The translations under genes were made by a program, and so were the position numbers. Below the pieces are notes generated by a model. It was not told where the DNA came from, did not search any database, and worked only from the letters and a program-made list of their open reading frames with translations. DNA of 11,736 nucleotides from the NCBI GenBank assembly GCA_030630935.1, contig DAOVMD010000049.1:1-11736 (forward strand), read 5' to 3'. Source of the stretch: Candidatus Mcinerneyibacteriota bacterium (GTDB taxonomy: Bacteria; AUK180; JAQVHJ01). Of this stretch, positions 1 to 11,736 are shown piece by piece (within the stretch, counting starts at the first letter, position 1; the number at the start of each line of letters is the position of its first letter).

Positions 1-1148
1 CTCATCTCTCCTTTTAAAACATTAATGAATTGGGGCATCTCGTCCAAACTGGTTTTTCTTAGGAACTTCCCTATTTTCGTTATCCTTTCATCATCCTTCA
101 TAGTCCAGGTTGGACCAGTCTCCTTCTCTGCTTCTACGATCATTGTTCGATACTTCAGCATGATAAAATTCTTTAGATCTTTTGTAACTCTCTCCTGTTT
201 GAAAAAGACCGGGCCTTTTGAAGTCGCTTTAATCAGGATTGCAATAATTAAATATGGAATTGAAAAAAGGGTTATTACCATTAACGAGAATATAATATCA
301 AATATCCTTTTTAAGAACACATTGAACCCGTGGAGCGGCAGGCTCTTCACGGTAAGAGTCGGGATCCCATCCAGGTTCTCCACCTGAACTTTTGTTGTAA
401 TTAAACCAAATATATCCGAGACAATCTTTATCTCACAACCCATCTGTTCAAAGTATTCCATAATCTCAACAAGATACTTATGATTAAAATCTTCAATTGT
501 CCAGATAATGGAATTGATCCCCTCATCAGTTACGATTTTTTTATAATCCTTTAGGCTCCCTAAAATTTTCTCTCCCCCTGAATCATGGTTTTTACCATCT
601 TCATCAATAAAACCTATAAACTCATAACCAAGATTCCTGTTCATTATAACTTTTTTCTTTATATCAATTGCTTCAGGGTTCAGACCAAAAATCACTAACC
701 TTTTCACCCCAATTCCACGTCTTAATAATAGGACTGCAAACCATCTTAATAGAAATCTGCTGATTATAAGAAAGAAGAATATTGCAAACCATGCGATTAA
801 AATCATAATTCTTGAGTATGTAAATTCCCTATACCAAAAAGTCAATGCCATCATAATCAAGGTTGCTGAGATTGTTCCGATTAATAAGGAATACGCCTCA
901 TCGATCCTGGAATACTTCAGCTTCTCTGAATACAGATCAAAGAACTGGAATACTGCAACCCAAACAAATATCATAAGAATAAATGCTCTTAAATAAGAAA
1001 TAAATGGCGGAATACCCTTCGTCACTTCAATTAATCCTGAATTAAATCTCAACCAATATGAAAACAGGAAACCTAAAAATATCATTACGGAATCACTTAG
1101 AATATAAGTAAATGGTTGTAGTAAAATATTTAGTTTTTTTCTTTTCAT
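1..1148 (-). CDS. Polyprenyl-phosphate glycosylphosphotransferase (WbaP/PssY-like initiating sugar transferase), partial
   Basis: This frame starts at an ATG at 1148 and runs open for 382 codons to the window edge, so the C-terminus is missing. Residues 15-35, 54-72, 86-104 and 112-140 look like membrane helices. Residues 148-250 resemble the nucleotide-binding-like CoA_binding_3 domain. From about residue 277 the bacterial sugar transferase domain begins: FLKRIFDII, a hydrophobic segment at 285-306, then SKGPVFFKQERV (310-321), LKYRTM (331-336) and KTSLDEMPQFINVLKGEM at the edge. The family transfers a sugar-1-phosphate from a UDP-sugar to undecaprenyl phosphate and starts repeat-unit synthesis at the inner membrane. 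Family members are about 450-480 residues, so roughly 80 are lost. The start codon overlaps the stop of the upstream glycosyltransferase as ATGA, so it is probably translationally coupled as the last visible gene of operon A. The sugar cannot be told from sequence. Confidence 0.93.
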   Translation of the reverse strand, partial: MKRKKLNILLQPFTYILSDSVMIFLGFLFSYWLRFNSGLIEVTKGIPPFISYLRAFILMIFVWVAVFQFFDLYSEKLKYSRIDEAYSLLIGTISATLIMMALTFWYREFTYSRIMILIAWFAIFFFLIISRFLLRWFAVLLLRRGIGVKRLVIFGLNPEAIDIKKKVIMNRNLGYEFIGFIDEDGKNHDSGGEKILGSLKDYKKIVTDEGINSIIWTIEDFNHKYLVEIMEYFEQMGCEIKIVSDIFGLITTKVQVENLDGIPTLTVKSLPLHGFNVFLKRIFDIIFSLMVITLFSIPYLIIAILIKATSKGPVFFKQERVTKDLKNFIMLKYRTMIVEAEKETGPTWTMKDDERITKIGKFLRKTSLDEMPQFINVLKGEM

Positions 1149-2245
1149 AGGTTTCTCTTTATGGTTTTTATTGAATTAAGAAAACTCTCTTTAAACTTAT
1201 TCTCAGAAAATCTCAAGGATTCATCCCGCAAAGCTCCAGGTTCAAATGTCAAATTCTCAAATCTTTCAATTGCAGAATTCAAACCGTTAATACTCGGGTC
1301 ATCAAAAAACACCCCCGTTTTTCCTTCTTTAATAATCTCCTTTGCACCGCCGCCATTAAATGCAATTACCGGTGTTCCACACGCAAGAGCTTCAACCATT
1401 GTTATTCCAAAATCTTCAGTCCCAGGAAAAATTAAACCCTTAGCTTTTCGAAGAGAGGCTCGAAGTTTATCATCATCCTGGTATCCGATCAGTGTAATAT
1501 TTGAACCTGCAATTCTCTTTAATCTTTTTAACTCTGGTCCTGTTCCGATGATAAGAAGTTTCTTCTTGGTTTGATTAAATGCCCTGATCGCAAGGTCAAT
1601 TTTCTTATACGGAACAAGTGCAGAAATAATCAAGTAATAATCTTCCTTGCTGTATTCAGGATCCGGTGTGAAATATTCCGTATTAACAGGGGGATAAATA
1701 ATCTCTGAGTCTTTATTATAAAATCTTTTTATGCGGGTTTTTACAAAATCTGAAATTGTAATTAATTTATCCACTCTTTGTGTTGAGATATAATCCCAGG
1801 TTCTTAAGTAATTAAAGATCCATCCGAATAAAAGCTTTTTCATTAACCCGAAACTTTTCAGGTCGAAATATTCATAAAACATATCATACGCATATCGCAT
1901 GGGAGTAAACATATAAGTCAGGTGCGGAATACCCTGGGGTACAATCACTCCCTTGGATACACAGTGGCTGAGTGAAATTACAAGATCATAACTTCTTAAA
2001 TCAAATAATTCAATTGCGGCAGGATGATAAAACAGGTAATGCTTATATAATTTTTTCGAAAATGGAAATCGCTGAATTATTGATGTATGAATCTTTTTTG
2101 AATTAATTTTATCACTCATTTTTTTGGGATTATAAACAAGTGTAAATATTTCAGCTTGCGGAAAGAGATCCAAAACAACCTCAAGGACTTTCTCCCCGCC
2201 TCTTAAAGTAACAAGCCAATCATGGATAATCGCGACTTTATTCAT
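1145..2245 (-). CDS. Glycosyltransferase family 4, WbaZ-like
   Basis: A 366-residue GT-B fold glycosyltransferase of family GT4. The N-terminus (KVAIIHDWLVTLRGGEKVLE, residues 3-22) carries the HDW and GGE motifs that I associate with the WbaZ-like mannosyltransferase subgroup. The acceptor-side domain covers about 1-195. The donor domain follows, with VPYKKID (211-217), GTGPE (234-238) and the family E-x7-E signature EDFGITMVE (277-285), followed by ACGTPVIAF. No signal peptide or clear transmembrane helix is visible, so it should act at the cytoplasmic face of the membrane on a lipid-linked acceptor. It is the third gene of operon A: it overlaps the end of the preceding glycosyltransferase by 8 bp and the following sugar transferase by 4 bp. 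Mannose transfer would be a guess from the subgroup. Donor and linkage are unknown. Confidence 0.92.
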   Translation of the reverse strand: MNKVAIIHDWLVTLRGGEKVLEVVLDLFPQAEIFTLVYNPKKMSDKINSKKIHTSIIQRFPFSKKLYKHYLFYHPAAIELFDLRSYDLVISLSHCVSKGVIVPQGIPHLTYMFTPMRYAYDMFYEYFDLKSFGLMKKLLFGWIFNYLRTWDYISTQRVDKLITISDFVKTRIKRFYNKDSEIIYPPVNTEYFTPDPEYSKEDYYLIISALVPYKKIDLAIRAFNQTKKKLLIIGTGPELKRLKRIAGSNITLIGYQDDDKLRASLRKAKGLIFPGTEDFGITMVEALACGTPVIAFNGGGAKEIIKEGKTGVFFDDPSINGLNSAIERFENLTFEPGALRDESLRFSENKFKESFLNSIKTIKRNL

Positions 2246-3335
2246 TTATTACCCTTTTATATAAATCATACGTTTTCTGAGCCGCATCAGCCCAGGAAAA
2301 TTTTTTAATATGCTCTAAACCTTTCTTCACCATTTCATTATATAACTCTGAGTCTTCAGATAGTTTAATGATTGCCTGGACAATATCATCTATCTCCTTT
2401 GGATTAATCATCAACCCGGCATCCCCAACTACTTCAGGTAATGAAGATGCATTTGAAACAATAACCGGTGTCCCGCAAGCCATTGCTTCAAGGGGCGGTA
2501 ATCCAAACCCTTCGTAAAAACTGGGTAGGATAAAGATATCTGCGGCATTATATGCGTAAAGCATCATTAAATCATCAAGATAAGATAATACCTTGACATT
2601 CTCTGAAATCCCTAACTCATCAATAGTTTTAAGGAGCTGCTTCTCATTCATCTTTGTTCCTGCTAACAGCAGGGTGAAATCAAAATTCTTCTCTTTAAGT
2701 ATCTTCGAAACCTTTAATAATGCCTGGATATTTTTGTGATATTTATTTAACCCGACAAACATTAACATTAATCCTTTCACACCCAATTTCTCTTTAAACC
2801 TTGAGATTACTTTAGGGTCATCGAGTTGTTTAAAATAAGGGTCAACACCAATATAAATAACTTCAATGTTCTCAGGTTTAAATTTGAAATATTCTATCAG
2901 GTCCCGTTTCGTAGATTCAGAGTCTGTAATGATTTTATGAGATTTTTTTTGAAGTTTCTTAAACATATACCGGGAATATAGTTTTGCCAGTTTTGAACGT
3001 AATTCAATCGGGTAAAGAAAATGAATAATATCATGAACTGTAACAATCACTCTGCCTCTATATAAGATAGGAAAATTATAGTGCGGGGAATGAAATATAT
3101 CCAAGTCTTTTAACTTGGAAGGGAGCATTATTTGTTCAACAATTTTATATATTTCATATTCGGTCTGGTAAATTACCGCTTCAGTTGTCGGGAATTGATT
3201 CCGAACTTCGTTTATCTTGCCATATAAAATGAATTCCTCACCATTATTATATTCTAACATATGACTCAGAATGTTCCTGATATATCTACCAATCCCGGAA
3301 TAATTTATCATCCTGACGTCAAGTCCAATTTTCAT
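2238..3335 (-). CDS. Glycosyltransferase family 4 (MtfB-like)
   Basis: A 365-residue GT4 enzyme. The start MKIGLDVRMINYSGIGRYI is typical of the subgroup, with the Gly-rich GIGRY motif near residues 14-18 that helps bind the nucleotide. HDIIH (101-105) and TDSESTKRDL (137-146) lie in the N-terminal domain. In the donor domain are FVGLNKYHKN (193-202) and the E-x7-E signature EGFGLPPLE (275-283), followed by ACGTPVIVS. It is a close relative of the C-terminal half of the upstream 767-residue fusion protein, which has the same order of motifs, so the two may descend from one duplication. It starts 3 bp after the stop of that gene and overlaps the next gene by 8 bp. Donor sugar and linkage cannot be assigned. 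Confidence 0.93.
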   Translation of the reverse strand: MKIGLDVRMINYSGIGRYIRNILSHMLEYNNGEEFILYGKINEVRNQFPTTEAVIYQTEYEIYKIVEQIMLPSKLKDLDIFHSPHYNFPILYRGRVIVTVHDIIHFLYPIELRSKLAKLYSRYMFKKLQKKSHKIITDSESTKRDLIEYFKFKPENIEVIYIGVDPYFKQLDDPKVISRFKEKLGVKGLMLMFVGLNKYHKNIQALLKVSKILKEKNFDFTLLLAGTKMNEKQLLKTIDELGISENVKVLSYLDDLMMLYAYNAADIFILPSFYEGFGLPPLEAMACGTPVIVSNASSLPEVVGDAGLMINPKEIDDIVQAIIKLSEDSELYNEMVKKGLEHIKKFSWADAAQKTYDLYKRVINE

Positions 3336-3338
3336 CCG

Positions 3339-5642
3339 TTAACCTGCTAATTTTAAATAATGTTCATGAGTTATCTTCACAGTTTCATGCCAATTATAAT
3401 TTTTAATAATTATTTTGCCATTAGCAATTAATTTATTTCTTAATTCCAAATCAGGGATCAAGGTCTTGAGAGCTTGGTATATTGAATCAATATCATCCGG
3501 GTCAATATACAACGCTGAATCCTTTAGTATCTCCTTAAGTGACCCTCCCGATGATGAGATCACAGGTTTACCCGATGCAATCGCTTCAAGGGGCGGGAAC
3601 CCAAACCCTTCATAATAACTCGGGTAAATAAAAATATCACATTCATTATAAAGTGTAATTAGTTCTTCATTACTGACATAATCCGTGAATACTACCTTAT
3701 CAGATAGACCCAATTCATTCACAAGAAGTTTGGCTTGATTATAAGTATGAGAAAATTTCCCGACTATTACTAAGATATAATCAGGTTCCGAACTCTGAAA
3801 TTTGTTGAAGGCTTTTATGAGATTTAAAACATTTTTCCTCGGTTCAAAACCGCCTGTATTGAGAATGAATTTCTTTTCAATTCCAAATCGGGTCTTCAAT
3901 AATTCAATTGATCCACTTGAAGTTGTGCTGGTGAACTCATCTCGTACTCCTAAATAAACTGCTTCAACTTTCCTGCGTGACTTGGAATAAATCCGTTCAA
4001 TATCCCGCTTTGAATTTACGGAATCAGTTAAAATTAAATCGGCGGCATTTACAACTTTCGGATAAAGAATTCGCGCAAGGAAAGAAAATTTCTTCGATGC
4101 ATACTCAGGATAGATAATCGGAACCAGGTCATGAATAGTTACAATCTTCTTAAAATCTCCATGCAGCGGCATTTCAAAATTAACTGGTGAATGAAGAATA
4201 CTAATCCTATCTTTCATACATTGTTTTGGAAGTTTATGCTGGAGCCAAATCTGCCGGATGCCCATAGGTATAATTCTCAGATGGAAATTATCCGGTAAAT
4301 CGAGATTAGGTGGAGTATTATCAAAGTATATGAAATATTCATTGAATTTATCAAGCTCAGGAAGAATCCTGATGAGATTCTCAACATATTCTCCTATCCC
4401 CATTCTTGAATAAAACATTAACCTGGCATCTATCCCAATTCGAACTTTTTTCTTTTCCTTCATAATATCTGCAGTTGGATATTTAATTTCGATATTATCC
4501 TTCTCATTTATCAGGGTAACAAGTTTATCTATTCTATCACCCCAGGTATTCTCTGAAGCTAATTGAATACGGTCTTCAGCTTGAGTCGAACTACCGGAAG
4601 CATTAAGTTCCCTGCAGCTTCTAATGAAATCAGATGGTGAACCCGCAATTTTAACAATGCTCCCGAACTTCTCAAGCTCAGGGATCCGGGTTGCAATTAC
4701 CGGCTTACCTGTCGCAAGGTATTCGAAGAACTTAATCGGGAAACAAGATTTTATATATTCATTTAACCGGTACGGTAAGATCAAGATGTCAGAATGCTGA
4801 ATGTATTCAGGTAATCTCGAATATCGCTTCTTACCAAGGAAATAAATATTCTTATGTGACTCCAAACCCTTGATATCAGTCTTAAGCTCACCTGTGTTCT
4901 TTGGGCCTAATAAAATAATCGAAAATTCAGGGAGCTCATTTGCTAATGCCTCAAGCAAATCAAAATCAAGTTTGAAACTGCTAATTGCTCCGATGAAAAG
5001 TAAACGCGGATGCGGAATATCAGATAGGTCACTGGGTTCGGCGTAATTTAATTTCTTAATGGAATTAAAATGATCAAACTCTGCAACATTAGTTATCAAG
5101 TGTGTGTTTGAGTTTAATTTCTGCTTATCAGTAAATATCTTATGCGACGTTGCAAATACTATGTCTACGCGTGAAACTAAATGGTTCTCAATACGTTTGA
5201 TACGTTGCTCACCAAATTTCTCCCGATAAACCGGAAACTGGGAATAATCATCTACACAATCATAAATACTGAACGATTCATTAAAGTGATTTAACCAAAT
5301 CCCGCCTTCAGGTTGATAAATCCATAATACCTTCTTTCCAGGTAATAAAATTAAAACAAAAATCTTTAGGAATAACCTCCAGTATAAATTGAGAATCTGA
5401 TCGATTAACCTAATTCGAAAACCAGTGGCACTAAGTCCCGATGGAAGGATAAAAATATTACGGTTTGGTCGCGAGAAAATATCCCTGAAAGAATATCCGC
5501 CAGTGATAAACTTACGAAAACTCAAATACTCCGGGTTCAAATATAAGACTCGGTTAAATCGCGATAGGATATTCATAATATACTGCTTGTTTGTCCAAAG
5601 CTCTTCAAGCCAATTCTGTGTCGAAACACAAATTATATTCAT
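3339..5642 (-). CDS. Two-domain fusion of GT4 glycosyltransferases (TuaH-like N-half, MtfB-like C-half)
   Basis: A 767-residue protein, about twice the usual GT4 length, holding two complete glycosyltransferases in tandem. The N-half (1 to about 385) resembles TuaH-type enzymes: WIYQPEGGIW (107-116), SIYDCVDDYSQFP (125-137), and a donor-site block FEYLATGKPVIAT (306-318). The C-half (about 394-767) opens with MKEKKKVRIGIDARLMF, like an independent GT4 start, and contains GIGEY (415-419), HDLVP (504-508), GGFEPRKN (597-604) and the E-x7-E motif EGFGFPPLE (678-686). About 15 polar residues link the halves. Start chosen at the ATG at 5642; AAAGG lies 10 bp upstream at 5653-5657. It is the first gene of operon A. 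An internal ATG at 4463 could start the C-half alone, but no good ribosome site precedes it. Two sugars added in succession is the simplest inference. Confidence 0.92.
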   Translation of the reverse strand: MNIICVSTQNWLEELWTNKQYIMNILSRFNRVLYLNPEYLSFRKFITGGYSFRDIFSRPNRNIFILPSGLSATGFRIRLIDQILNLYWRLFLKIFVLILLPGKKVLWIYQPEGGIWLNHFNESFSIYDCVDDYSQFPVYREKFGEQRIKRIENHLVSRVDIVFATSHKIFTDKQKLNSNTHLITNVAEFDHFNSIKKLNYAEPSDLSDIPHPRLLFIGAISSFKLDFDLLEALANELPEFSIILLGPKNTGELKTDIKGLESHKNIYFLGKKRYSRLPEYIQHSDILILPYRLNEYIKSCFPIKFFEYLATGKPVIATRIPELEKFGSIVKIAGSPSDFIRSCRELNASGSSTQAEDRIQLASENTWGDRIDKLVTLINEKDNIEIKYPTADIMKEKKKVRIGIDARLMFYSRMGIGEYVENLIRILPELDKFNEYFIYFDNTPPNLDLPDNFHLRIIPMGIRQIWLQHKLPKQCMKDRISILHSPVNFEMPLHGDFKKIVTIHDLVPIIYPEYASKKFSFLARILYPKVVNAADLILTDSVNSKRDIERIYSKSRRKVEAVYLGVRDEFTSTTSSGSIELLKTRFGIEKKFILNTGGFEPRKNVLNLIKAFNKFQSSEPDYILVIVGKFSHTYNQAKLLVNELGLSDKVVFTDYVSNEELITLYNECDIFIYPSYYEGFGFPPLEAIASGKPVISSSGGSLKEILKDSALYIDPDDIDSIYQALKTLIPDLELRNKLIANGKIIIKNYNWHETVKITHEHYLKLAG

Positions 5643-6287: not shown

Positions 6288-6686
6288 ATGTTATTTTTTT
6301 TAGTTTTAAGTTGGGCATTCTTTTTTATTGGTATTTATATCAGATTTAGTAAAGATCCATTTGCAAAAAAAAACTTATGGAAAACGGGAATGTGGGCAGG
6401 TATTATTTTTATTACAATATCAGTAATTATTCCTTTTAAAGTCGTTATTACTCTATATGACTCCATACCGCTACCATCATTCCCATCTGTAATGTTTGTG
6501 CATCTGTTATTCGCTATTATGTTGGAATGTTTTCTAGGAGGTCCAGGAAGTTTAGTACCTTTTGGCACTTTGTATATTCGCTTTTCGATTACTTTACTTT
6601 TACTTTACGGAGGATTAGGAGCATTTATAGGTTATGTTATTGGGAAATTTATCCCTTCAGAAAAAAAGAATAATTTGAGAGATTAA
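6288..6686 (+). CDS. Small predicted integral membrane protein, unknown function
   Basis: A 132-residue protein with about four hydrophobic segments: 1-19, 35-54, 67-87 (weaker, interrupted) and 97-121. It has a charged cytosolic-looking tail, SEKKNNLRD. I do not recognise the family. The charged loop KDPFAKKNLWK lies between the first two helices and a GGPGSLVPFGT stretch precedes the last. The start is supported by AGGAG at 6275-6279, 8 bp before the ATG, and by a candidate promoter at 6213-6241. It is the only plus-strand gene: it points away from operon A and toward the end of operon B, flanked on both sides by palindromic repeats. A role in polysaccharide synthesis is not supported by anything except location. 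Overlapping frames on the other strand lack comparable start signals. Confidence 0.7.
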   Translation: MLFFLVLSWAFFFIGIYIRFSKDPFAKKNLWKTGMWAGIIFITISVIIPFKVVITLYDSIPLPSFPSVMFVHLLFAIMLECFLGGPGSLVPFGTLYIRFSITLLLLYGGLGAFIGYVIGKFIPSEKKNNLRD

Positions 6687-6961: not shown

Positions 6962-8023
6962 TTATAAAAACTTGTTTATAACAGAAAGAAGTGAAGCACC
7001 GTTCCCTATTTCATATTTCTCTTCAACCAGTTTTCTACCTTCAGTTCCCATTTTTATTTGCAAATCTTTATTTTCATAGAGTTCATTTAATGCATCTAAC
7101 CATTCTGTTTGTGTATCCGCTAAATAACCATTTATTTTATTTTCAATAATTTCATTATTTATCCCCACAGGTGTTGCAATTACAGGTAAAAAACATCCCA
7201 TATATTGGATCAATTTCAAACCGCATTTTCCCCTGGTCCATTTTGTATCAGGAAGGGGCATAATACCTACATTGAACTCTCTAATATCTTTTACTTCATC
7301 CTCTTCAGTCCATTTCCATATTTCAGTATTTATTCCCTTTAACCTTTTTCTCATACTTTCATTAGCACCAATTAATACAAGTTTATAATCATGATTTTTA
7401 CCAAACTGTTTTAAAACAGGATATATTTCCATCATATAATCTTCGGTATATGGAGAACCTATCCAACCAATCGTAAATTTTTCCGGAAGCGGAGATTTCT
7501 TTTCCGGATATTTTTTCAAATCGATAACCGTAGGAATTTCAAATACATTATTATTATATTTTTCCATATATGCAGTTAAATAAGGACTACCGGTTACAAT
7601 TGCATTCGCTTTTTTTGCAATATTTTTTATTTTACTTCCTAATATTATTTTTCTCATTGGGCTTGTATCATAATGATGAAATATCGCATCATCATAGTCA
7701 AGTAAATATGGTATATGAAATACCTTTAATAACCATTCAAAAAGTCCAGGAATGTAAGGAAATAATTCCGCTTCGATCAATAATAAATCGTACTTTTTTA
7801 CAGAGAACAATATAATTAAACGTTTAAAATAACATCTAAGGATATCTTGTAAAAAATGTTTTTTTGTTGAATAAATATTCTTTACATAGATTTCATCAAA
7901 AAGTGGGGTTGTGTCAATTATTATTCCTTCTTTTTTCAAATATGGAATATATTGATAAGATCTATATCTGCTATTAGCTCCTAATCTATTGTATTTTGTT
8001 AAAAAAAGTATTTTCTTACTCAT
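6962..8023 (-). CDS. Glycosyltransferase family 4-like protein
   Basis: A 353-residue GT-B type glycosyltransferase. The N-terminus KKILFLTKYNRLGANSRYRSYQYIPYL (3-29) has the GANSRYR pattern seen in GT4-like enzymes. LLDYDDAIFHHYD (107-119) forms the end of the first domain. The donor domain has FTIGWIGSP (183-191) and RGKCGLKLIQYMGCFLPVIATPVG (264-287), which aligns with the usual E-x7-E region, but the first Glu position is replaced by a Lys/Gly-rich segment, as in some GT4 branches. No signal peptide is visible. Its ATG overlaps the 3' end of the upstream GT2 gene by 8 bp, and it is the last gene of operon B. Composition is strongly AT-rich (14 G or C in bases 7501-7560). Donor and acceptor are unknown. 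Confidence 0.9.
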   Translation of the reverse strand: MSKKILFLTKYNRLGANSRYRSYQYIPYLKKEGIIIDTTPLFDEIYVKNIYSTKKHFLQDILRCYFKRLIILFSVKKYDLLLIEAELFPYIPGLFEWLLKVFHIPYLLDYDDAIFHHYDTSPMRKIILGSKIKNIAKKANAIVTGSPYLTAYMEKYNNNVFEIPTVIDLKKYPEKKSPLPEKFTIGWIGSPYTEDYMMEIYPVLKQFGKNHDYKLVLIGANESMRKRLKGINTEIWKWTEEDEVKDIREFNVGIMPLPDTKWTRGKCGLKLIQYMGCFLPVIATPVGINNEIIENKINGYLADTQTEWLDALNELYENKDLQIKMGTEGRKLVEEKYEIGNGASLLSVINKFL

Positions 8024-8978
8024 GTTTCCTCATTCTTCTTATTGTGTCATTCAAATTTAAATAAAATAAGGTATACCCTTTTAACACTTCAATAAATCCT
8101 TTAAATCCGCTTTTTATTGATAAAAAAATTATTCTTGTAAAGAATTCAATGGTTATTATAGAAATTAAATTTACTATGGAAACGAAAAATGAAAAATATT
8201 TGAAATAATAAAGTATCCTGCTTTGTAAAACATAAAATAATCTTTTTCCCTTTACTTGGTCAGATGTTCCACCAGCTTTATGGAAAACTTTCGCTTTTGA
8301 AATATACATACTTTTATATCCTGATAAATTCGCTCTATAAGAAAGATCAACATCTTCAAAATAAAGAAAAAAACGCTCATCAAATCCATTTAATTGTTTA
8401 AAGATTTCAGCTCTTATGAGTAAAAAAGCACCCATGACCTGATCTACTAATCTATCTTCATCATGTTCCCACTCCAGCATAAAATGACCCTTTATTTTTT
8501 GCGGGAAAAATTTATGTAAATTCAAAGCCATTTCTATAAAACGGCTGCTGTTTGGAAATCTTGCACAATTTCTAGAAACTTTTCCACTTTCATCAAACAA
8601 TTTTACTCCCACAATACCTATTTTTTTATTTTTTTCATTTTCCATAAATTCAATGGGAACAGTAAGAGAATTGTTTTCTAATATAACATCAGGATTTAAA
8701 AAAAGCAAATATTCCGCCTTTGAATATTGAACAGCCTGGTTACATGCTTTTGCGAATCCAACATTCTTTTTATTTTTTATTAATTTAATATTTAAGGCTA
8801 ACTCGTCTATTTTTTCTAAGGATTTATCCCTTGAATTATTATCTACAACAATAATATTCTTCAGGGATAAGTTGGTTTTATCAGCACTTTTTATTGATAA
8901 TAAACATTTATATAATTGAGCTTGCGAATTCCAGTTAACGATAATAATACATAAATTAGGTTTAATCAAGTTCATCAT
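8016..8978 (-). CDS. Glycosyltransferase family 2 (rhamnosyltransferase-like)
   Basis: A GT-A fold family 2 enzyme. With the ATG at 8978 it has 320 residues. Motifs in order: LCIIIVNWNS (9-18), IIVVDNNSRDKS (42-53), NVGFAKACNQA (72-82), LLFLNPDV (91-98; NPD is the metal-binding DXD equivalent), VMGAFLLIRAEIF (181-193), GFDERFFLYFEDVDLSYR (198-215) with the acidic catalytic block, and H233. A hydrophobic stretch at about 262-286 may anchor the C-terminus to the membrane. The longest frame would begin at a TTG at 8996, but two consecutive ATG codons at 8978 and 8975 are better starts. They overlap the out-of-frame tail of the upstream GT2 remnant, which suggests a formerly coupled pair. Rhamnose transfer is only the most common activity of relatives. 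Confidence 0.9.
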   Translation of the reverse strand: MMNLIKPNLCIIIVNWNSQAQLYKCLLSIKSADKTNLSLKNIIVVDNNSRDKSLEKIDELALNIKLIKNKKNVGFAKACNQAVQYSKAEYLLFLNPDVILENNSLTVPIEFMENEKNKKIGIVGVKLFDESGKVSRNCARFPNSSRFIEMALNLHKFFPQKIKGHFMLEWEHDEDRLVDQVMGAFLLIRAEIFKQLNGFDERFFLYFEDVDLSYRANLSGYKSMYISKAKVFHKAGGTSDQVKGKRLFYVLQSRILYYFKYFSFFVSIVNLISIITIEFFTRIIFLSIKSGFKGFIEVLKGYTLFYLNLNDTIRRMRKHE

Positions 8979-9406
8979 AACCAATCCATTTTTCAACTTC
9001 CCAAAAAGTTACCTTTCTTTTTTTTTACCACCTTATGCTTTCTTTAACATTGTGGAAAATATTTTATGGTATCTATTTTTCCCTTTATTCTAAATTTCCT
9101 AACAACACAATTTGGCGGGTGCTTACCCGGAACATTACCAGGAAAAATAAGAAAAACCGGTGTATCATAAAGAATTCTACCCAAACCAATTAGCAAAGTT
9201 TTTATTGAAGCATTCTTTATATAATAAGGCAGATTTCTTGAAAGGAAATATTCCTTTACTTTACCTCCACTTGCAGAAAATTTATGATATACAAAGAAGT
9301 TGGGGAAATAATAACTTTTCCAAATAGACAGACACAGGCGCCAAGCTAAATCGACATCTTCAAAATATGCAAAGGAATCTTTATCCATGTTAAATCCTTT
9401 CTGCAA
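8962..9406 (-). pseudogene. Remnant of a GT2 glycosyltransferase, N-terminus deleted and C-terminus frameshifted
   Basis: The open frame 9406-9044 encodes only the C-terminal third of a GT2 enzyme. It contains GFNMDKDSFAYFEDVDLAWR, matching GFDERFFLYFEDVDLSYR of the intact downstream gene, then FVYHKFSASGG and RNLPYYIKNASIK. The nucleotide-binding half, with the VVDNNS and NPD motifs, is absent. An in-frame stop at about 9419-9421 shows that it does not extend upstream. Translation could begin only at a TTG (9406) or an ATG (9388), inside or next to the last codons of the permease gene. After the stop at 9044, a different frame (9018-8962) encodes RKVTFWEVEKWIGYDELD, which looks like the lost C-terminal tail. 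The frame change falls in or near a run of nine A at 9018-9026. It should be inactive as a glycosyltransferase. Confidence 0.75.
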
Positions 9407-10235
9407 CTCTGGTTTCAGTTAAATGAAAAATAACAATACAAATAACAAATACAAAAATAGAAATAATGGTAGAAATTAAAAATCCAAGTACATTTGTAGA
9501 TTCCCCGAATAAAATAATATCCCTTGGAACAGTAATTAAATAAAATAGCGGGTTATATTTTGTTATAACTGCCATTAGCCCTTTTGTCGGTGTGGAATAA
9601 AGTACTGGTGTAAGGAACATCAAAAAAGTAATTAATACAGAAAGGATATTTCCAATATCCCGAAATACACCATTTAATAAGGAAAGAATAAAACCAAAAC
9701 CAAGTGTGAATAAGATAATGGGTATTATTAAAATAGGCGTAAGCAAAATATATAAGTTTGGTGAATAGTTGTAAATAAAGAATAGGATAATAACTAATAA
9801 AAACTGAACTAAAAAGGATATTAATGCCTGACCTATTGCAGCTATAACCAATGTCTTTTTTGAAAAATTTATTTTAATGATCATTGAACCGGCTTTTACT
9901 AAAGAATTTGATGTACTTAATAATCCCGTCGAGAACAATTGCCATATAGATATACCTAAAACAGCATAAATTGCATACGGAACTTTTATTGTACCAATGT
10001 TAAAAATACCTGCTCTATTTAATAAAACAAAGGTTCCCACACTTATAAGGGGAATTATAAACGCCCATAAAACACCGATAAAAGACTGCTTATAAATTGC
10101 TAAAAAATCACGCTTAAAAAATTGAAAAGTTAACCATGTATTACTTTTTAACTCTCTATAAATTTCGCCAAATAAAGAAAAGTATCCTTTCTTTATGGAA
10201 TTATCCGGTTCGTATGTTTTTTTTATATTAGCCAT
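9390..10235 (-). CDS. wzm: Polysaccharide ABC transporter permease (Wzm-like, ABC-2 family)
   Basis: A 281-residue integral membrane protein with six predicted helices near 54-74, 87-107, 130-153, 162-188, 196-213 and 249-270. The N-terminal cytoplasmic segment ELKSNTWLTFQFFKRDFLAIYKQS, the FRDIGNIL motif (191-198) and YNPLFYLITVPRDIIL (227-242) are typical of permeases that export O-antigen or other polysaccharide lipids across the inner membrane with a Wzt ATPase. The end FHLTETRVAERI looks like a natural family C-terminus, so the protein seems complete. Start at the ATG at 10235, with AGGA at 10246-10249. It is the first gene of operon B. No ATPase (no Walker A or ABC signature) is encoded anywhere in the window, although wzt normally follows directly. 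The symbol rests on family resemblance. Confidence 0.87.
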   Translation of the reverse strand: MANIKKTYEPDNSIKKGYFSLFGEIYRELKSNTWLTFQFFKRDFLAIYKQSFIGVLWAFIIPLISVGTFVLLNRAGIFNIGTIKVPYAIYAVLGISIWQLFSTGLLSTSNSLVKAGSMIIKINFSKKTLVIAAIGQALISFLVQFLLVIILFFIYNYSPNLYILLTPILIIPIILFTLGFGFILSLLNGVFRDIGNILSVLITFLMFLTPVLYSTPTKGLMAVITKYNPLFYLITVPRDIILFGESTNVLGFLISTIISIFVFVICIVIFHLTETRVAERI

Positions 10236-10447: not shown

Positions 10448-10520
10448 TCTATCTTATTTTTTAGAAGTTTCCCCATTTTTTATGTTACATTAATATTGAA
10501 TTATATTATACTTTAAAACG

Positions 10521-10538
10521 AAAGGAATTTATTCCTTT
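10521..10538. terminator. Weak AT-rich hairpin between the IS end and operon B
   Basis: AAAGGAA (10521-10527) pairs with TTCCTTT (10532-10538) across TTTA. Read leftward, the stem is followed by CGTTTT; read rightward, by TATAT. It could stop transcripts leaving the transposase gene before they enter operon B, but the stem has only two G-C pairs. Confidence 0.25.
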
Positions 10539-10550
10539 TATATTTAGTAG

Positions 10551-10577
10551 GCAGGTTACCACGTAGGGTAAACCTGC
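10551..10577. repeat. Hairpin near the presumed IS terminus
   Basis: GCAGGTT (10551-10557) pairs with AACCTGC (10571-10577). Inside, ACC pairs with GGT with one bulged A, around a 6-base loop. It sits 66 bp beyond the transposase stop, where composition changes from AT-rich to mixed, so it probably marks or lies close to the IS end. The matching opposite end is outside the window. Confidence 0.45.
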
Positions 10578-10642
10578 ACAGCCCTGCGCTGCCATGGTCC
10601 CGACGCGTCAAGGATTTTTCAAGGGTAATTAATTATACATTT

Positions 10643-11487
10643 TTATTTAAATTGAAAATCGATTTTAAAATTATATAACCAGGGTATTCGTGGATTAATT
10701 CCTTCTTTTACTAATTTATCGGGTAAGTTTTCGTAGTGTTTTTTCAACTTAAGTTTTTCCGGGATATTGTACAGCGTAACAATTATAGTATCTTTTTTAA
10801 TTTTCAAATCGCCATCGATCCCATGGAATATAGTGTCGGCAAGATGTTTTGCTGTCCAATTTTTATATGGCCGCGGTAACTTTTTTCTGAATTGATAAGT
10901 AGCAGCCTGTGCAATTAACGCTAACGACATCTTGCCATAACGGATATTTAAATTCATGGTTGATGCTCTATCCCAACCCATTGCTGCTTCGAAATTAAAG
11001 AATTCCTCTATTGTCCAACGTTTTGGATAATCTTCTGTAAGCATCTTCATTTGCTTATTTCCACTATGTAAAGAAGTTGAACCAAATCCTTTGTATTCAT
11101 ATTTTGATTTGATCTCTCCAGTCCTTTGGGAAATCAAATTTATCAACATATCATTTCTCCCAAATGGATAAGTCCCCGAAGATAAAGAATATCCGGGCCA
11201 TTGTCTTTCATATTTTAACCCTTTCATATATTTTATGAGTTTTTCTGTGTTGGACATAGGCATAAGAACTTCATAATTTTCAGTTTCTTTAAACTTTTTA
11301 AAGATATCTACTGCTGCATGTTCAGTGTCAGCCATAAATAAACCGCCTTCCGGAACAATGCCCTTCATCATATCTACTAACTCTAAAGCAGCTCCGCTTA
11401 CGGTTTTGCCTGATGAGCCTATCGTAAAAACAACCGGTTGGCCTGTAATAGCATTAATGCAAAAGAATGTTTGTAGATTTTTTTTTT
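10643..11487 (-). CDS. IS4-type transposase, C-terminal portion (downstream of frameshift)
   Basis: The frame carries the central and C-terminal catalytic core of a DDE transposase. It is open upstream of the first ATG (11371) as far as 11521, and the stretch LQTFFCINAITGQPVVFTIG just after the A-run reads as native protein, so the real coding part begins at the frameshift and not at an ATG. FMADTEHA holds the likely second catalytic Asp (residue 15 when counted from the ATG). YPKRWTIEEFF matches the Y-x2-R-x3-E signature of the IS4 family around the catalytic Glu. The end at 10643 is natural. No ribosome site supports separate translation from 11371. Intact function would need a change of frame at the ten-A run at 11478-11487. 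Confidence 0.75.
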
Positions 11488-11736
11488 GAATGGCTTTTTG
11501 GTTTACTTTTTTTTGCAGGCATTATGCGTTTCGAATAGGTATTAATTCTATGAGGGTCAATGGCAAATAGCTCTCCGTTGTAATCTCCTCTGTTTTTACG
11601 TAATTTGCCAAGGGCAACCTGGAGAGCTTTCGCTTCTGATATGGTATGTAAATCTAATAACTCATGAATTGATTTATCTGTAGGCAAACAAAATAAACCA
11701 TTGAGAATTTCAAAACCTTGGTGACAGAGTGAACGC
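11454..11736 (-). CDS. IS4-type transposase, N-terminal portion, partial and frameshifted
   Basis: The frame enters from the right window edge and stops at 11454. Its visible start GFEILNGLFCLPTDKSIHELLD and GELFAIDPHRINTYSKR are transposase-like. AIDPHR contains the probable first catalytic Asp of the DDE triad. After a lysine-rich stretch and the ten-A run (11478-11487), this frame ends at LLH, while the homologous continuation is in the next frame. The TTG at 11685-11687 is not a credible start because the frame continues through it to the edge. The two pieces are one gene interrupted by a single-base frame change. It could be a dead copy or one expressed by slippage. Confidence 0.7.
   Translation of the reverse strand, partial: RSLCHQGFEILNGLFCLPTDKSIHELLDLHTISEAKALQVALGKLRKNRGDYNGELFAIDPHRINTYSKRIMPAKKSKPKSHSKKKSTNILLH

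Follow-up and report, generated by a model that had tools for sequence, protein, structure and literature searches.

A probable deletion between wzm and a GT2 glycosyltransferase gene leaves a polysaccharide-export permease without an adjacent Wzt ATPase

A Wzm-Wzt (ABC-transporter-dependent) locus for polysaccharide export in a Candidatus Mcinerneyibacteriota bacterium has probably lost its ATPase gene, wzt, together with the front of a GT2 glycosyltransferase gene, and the exporter would have been left without its ATPase. The locus lies in the window, by which we mean the whole stretch of DNA analysed, namely the entire contig C103 of 11,736 bases from an assembly of 3.16 Mb in 471 contigs with a completeness of 80%. 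We propose that the locus underwent one deletion, presumably as a single event, with its two ends in the opening codons of wzt and about 58% of the way into the GT2 gene. The permease would have remained untouched and wzt would be gone save its start, and this translation start would now open a GT2 remnant of 114 codons. The original prediction of one deletion that took wzt and the front of the GT2 gene is well supported, except that wzt seems not to have been removed whole, with the start codon and perhaps the next three codons still present.

The gene for the Wzm-type ABC-2 permease (9390..10235, minus strand) encodes 281 residues ending in ...HLTETRVAERI. The permease had been described as complete and ending at position 9390, which the comparison with other proteins bears out. 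It matches PF01061 (ABC2_membrane) at 2.6e-13 and aligns end to end with the permeases of 12 relatives from many phyla (G005, G006, L026-L033, G223, and G071) at 61–72% identity, as found for a full-length ABC-2 permease subunit of a Wzm-Wzt exporter. The match to the galactan Wzm/RfbD model is far under the model cut-off, and the plasmid records contained only relatives below 60% identity. The C-terminus shares the pattern H[L]xETR[VI]xE[RK][IV] with the wzm-wzt loci of G005, G006, G223, and L026-L033. At 94 columns invariant in the 12 relatives, the permease shows four changes, compared with 0 to 10 when each relative was left out in turn. Judged from its sequence, the permease is intact with no visible decay. 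The Wzm annotation alone is no proof that the strain exports polysaccharide by the Wzm-Wzt route.

The contrast between the window and the related loci is found immediately behind the permease gene. The expectation that Wzt is usually encoded directly downstream of wzm agrees with the relatives, all of which carry a Wzt-type ATPase gene downstream on the same strand where there is enough sequence (11 of 11: G005, G006, L026-L033, and G223). The contig of the twelfth relative, G071, ends before the wzt position, and it was excluded from this count. The 11 ATPases bear the Walker A motif, and those scanned match PF00005, several of them also PF14524. The KKYCKSL motif of wzt lies 40–41 nt past the permease stop in five relatives and also in G244, which is more distant; the spacing grows to 164–606 nt where the relatives have an insertion. 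The window, in contrast, has no KKYCKSL motif behind the permease, and no ATPase ORF was found on contig C103.

We searched the assembled genome (80% complete) for a Wzt homologue and found no cognate, as the original prediction would have it. The best ATPases, on contigs C138 and C176, each adjoin a permease of their own and thereby form two other complete wzm-wzt pairs. Their nucleotide-binding domains (NBDs) are 40–48% identical to the cognate family, whereas the cognates are mutually 63–85% identical; the assembled genome therefore holds no cognate Wzt. One could suppose that the orphan permease remains active and draws its energy from the ATPase of either of these two pairs, which would be in keeping with the undecayed permease and its number of changes within the range of the relatives. 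We consider this unlikely, as the two ATPases are distant from the cognate family and their own permeases are only 23–25% identical to that of the window, and after a recent deletion an intact permease is to be expected in any case. In a fragmented genome of this completeness, the cognate wzt might also reside in the unassembled or unbinned 20%, having moved rather than been lost. This is quite improbable, because wzt adjoins this permease in the relatives examined, and a moved wzt must also account for the truncated GT2 gene and the start codon left behind.

The deletion reading is best followed at the junction itself, where an ATG at 9388 lies one base past the permease stop. In 5 of the 11 relatives (L026, L027, L028, L030, and L032), wzt starts 1–2 nt past the permease stop with the residues MD or ME. 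The junction of L032 reads TAA-C-ATGGATGAAAGATTG and that of the window TAA-C-ATGGATAAAGATTCC (TAA-C-ATGGAT), and the chance of an ATGGA at position +1 or +2 is about 0.0026. Intact GT2 proteins that we inspected carry F or L where the remnant has the ATG codon. This ATG does not appear to derive from GT2, and, sitting where the relatives start wzt, is probably the wzt start. On the most economical reading of the sequence, the ATG and perhaps three further codons (MDKD; 9377..9388, minus strand), sharing position and first residues with the wzt genes of the relatives, represent the wzt start with the breakpoint just beyond, although the three codons after the ATG could equally belong to GT2. 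The retention of the wzt start would place the breakpoint among the opening codons of wzt, and the many relatives with the intact order allow it to be located within about 10 bases. The breakpoint may coincide with a microhomology (GAT.AAGAT). The nearest relatives, G005 and G006, carry a small ORF inserted between wzm and wzt, and for this reason we infer the directly adjoining wzt start from more distant relatives. The junction of the window is common to no relative examined.

The ATG opens a frame (9044..9388, minus strand) whose homology to intact GT2 proteins begins at the second codon and which matches them from residues 180–200 of about 320 onwards. The best intact homologue, from G100 (324 residues), aligns with the remnant from residue 190, with 54% identity over 59 aligned residues (tblastn against the fetched loci, E 1e-13), and the GT2 protein of G223 (321 residues) aligns from residue 187. 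The remnant was correctly predicted to be a C-terminal part beginning at the junction; its extent was underestimated as one third, since about 40% is kept and about 58% of the GT2 gene is gone. It retains the ED.D motif (EDVDLAWR) of the C-terminal part of GT2, and no domain was detected in it with Pfam or NCBIfam. The nucleotide-sugar-binding half (PF00535) is missing, as there is no Pfam match and the homology begins only at residues 187–190 of the relatives, and the remnant can therefore not be a working glycosyltransferase.

The homology fades past about residue 67–73 of the remnant, leaving the last third unrecognisable, and the frame stops at 9044–9046. Position 8962, earlier taken as the remnant boundary, has no support, as the approximately 80 nt beyond the stop show no detectable homology. 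We dropped the candidate of a frame-shifted GT2 C-terminus in 8964-9043 (KKRKVTFWEVEKWIGYDELD) because 304 of 1000 shuffles were as good. The spacer between the stop of the remnant and the next gene (8979..9043, minus strand), without homology and with the codon-position G+C pattern lost, is possibly the decayed 3' end of GT2. We also rejected the idea that the remnant descends from a second copy of the adjacent GT2 gene (8016-8978), because the remnant is closer to the G100 gene (score 149 vs. 109). An undeleted GT2 gene was sought in seven genomes of the same phylum, and no other had a match at E 1e-8. A native arrangement, with no wzt ever next to the permease at this locus and with the short ORF encoding a small protein that functions, could draw on the ATG one base past the permease stop and on the stretch AGAAAGG in front of it, a plausible ribosome-binding site. 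Such an arrangement was seen in no relative, and the short ORF corresponds to a GT2 protein only from its middle onwards, with the last third of the ORF unrecognisable, making this explanation extremely improbable.

How much the proposed deletion removed depends on the ancestral gene order, which we drew from relatives outside the genus and family of the source genome. If GT2 stood next to wzt, the loss comprises about 1.2 kb of wzt and about 0.56 kb of GT2, and the lost piece would amount to at least about 1.8 kb. In G223, one contig carries on one strand wzm, a 23S-rRNA-IVP ORF, wzt, a methyltransferase gene, further ORFs, three GT2 genes, and a GT4 gene; the last two GT2 genes and the GT4 gene match in order the remnant, the intact GT2, and the GT4 of the window, so that the downstream GT2-GT2-GT4 order is common to both. 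With this order in the ancestor, some 7 kb may have been lost instead of 1.8 kb (about 7.0 kb, locus L080, 5603 to 12600), and the deletion may have taken more genes than wzt and GT2. The G100 homologue lies directly behind an ORF whose N-terminus resembles the ORF behind the G223 methyltransferase gene, an arrangement that appears to fit the larger loss. The one genome compared from the same family, G001 (72% complete), has neither this wzm nor the GT4 gene and gives no undeleted locus for comparison.

The intact GT2 gene downstream of the remnant (8016..8978, minus strand) encodes 320 residues from an ATG at 8978 and matches PF00535 at 3.2e-21, with genes 51–58% identical in G019 and G006. 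It is followed by a GT4 gene (6962..8023, minus strand; PF13692, 4.3e-13), and the two genes form a GT2-GT4 pair conserved across G005, G006, G019, G351, and G223. Strand, gene order, and reading frame are kept over the join, with a similar gene order in G223, which speaks against an assembly artefact joining two places not adjacent in the cell. In favour of such an artefact one could cite the fragmented assembly and the contig end in a repeated insertion sequence (IS). However, neither flank of the junction recurs elsewhere in the genome, and those matches that cross it (20–27 nt, 86–95% identity) are too short for a k-mer join. The lack of a genomic repeat across the junction is evidence against repeat-driven misassembly, and we regard an artefact as very unlikely.

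The Wzm permease of ABC exporters does not itself hydrolyse ATP, and the exporter is for this reason probably dead. That the orphan permease is in service with a borrowed paralogous ATPase, with one Wzt serving two permeases, seems to us a doubtful prospect; if true, the wzm/wzt junction would be a place of exporter re-wiring. In the Wzm-Wzt O-antigen exporter of the ABC-transporter-dependent pathway, known from Aquifex aeolicus structures (PMC6379404, PMC9445017), Wzm is the channel-forming permease and Wzt the nucleotide-binding subunit (PMC6379404). The window has an ABC-2 permease of the same family, likewise clustered with GT2 and GT4 glycosyltransferase genes and a polyprenyl glycosylphosphotransferase gene, but differs from this exporter in lacking the Wzt subunit, of which only the start codon appears to be left. 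The retained permease and missing ATPase resemble engineered wzt deletions such as the Brucella Rev1 wzt mutants (PMC9306315). Unlike the window, these mutants are laboratory-made; upon removal of wzm or wzt in Brucella, the polymer is still made without being exposed on the surface, and capture of the lipid carrier has been suggested as possible (PMC9306315). The analogy with Brucella likewise suggests that the exporter of the window is probably dead. The loss in the window amounts to gene decay of an ordinary kind within a variable cluster, and it offers a clean case of an export operon breaking that is documented unusually precisely.

Small ORFs that separate wzm from wzt, or directly follow wzm, occur in about half of the relatives and in different phyla (L035 5887-6267, L008 1053-1436, L033 5646-6005, L080 12194-12550, L058 100-845, and L009 772-1501). 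They belong to unrelated families, namely PDDEXK_3, 23S_rRNA_IVP, and NTP_transf_2 plus HEPN. It is as if the wzm/wzt junction were an insertion hot spot, with the breakpoint of the window at the same place, and these mobile-looking ORFs may be of more general interest.

The polysaccharide cluster in the window, with nearly all genes on the minus strand, further includes the glycosylphosphotransferase gene (3-1148) and several GT4 genes (1145-5642 and 6962-8023). The gene at 3339-5642 (minus strand) encodes a 767-residue protein with two GT4 glycosyltransferases in one frame, a TuaH-like one followed by a second GT4. A hydrophobic ORF of 132 residues at 6288-6686 lies on the plus strand amid minus-strand genes, without a Pfam or PADLOC match. 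Upstream of the permease, a DDE_Tnp_1-type IS (about 10598-11736, minus strand) is cut by the contig end. It is the only IS seen and lies about 1.2 kb from the junction, and an IS-mediated deletion is unsupported. The frame of this copy is broken between 11371 and 11454, while a 95% identical copy on contig C282 has an open frame of 475 codons. The IS adjoins a repeat of about 125 bp (10462-10585, minus strand), in which two stretches, GCAGGTTTACCCTACGTGGTAACCTGC and AAAGGAATAAATTCCTTT, are hairpin-like and which has no match in Rfam. This repeat occurs genome-wide in over 20 copies, partial or full and 79–97% identical, and on contig C225 an IS end appears to adjoin it as well.
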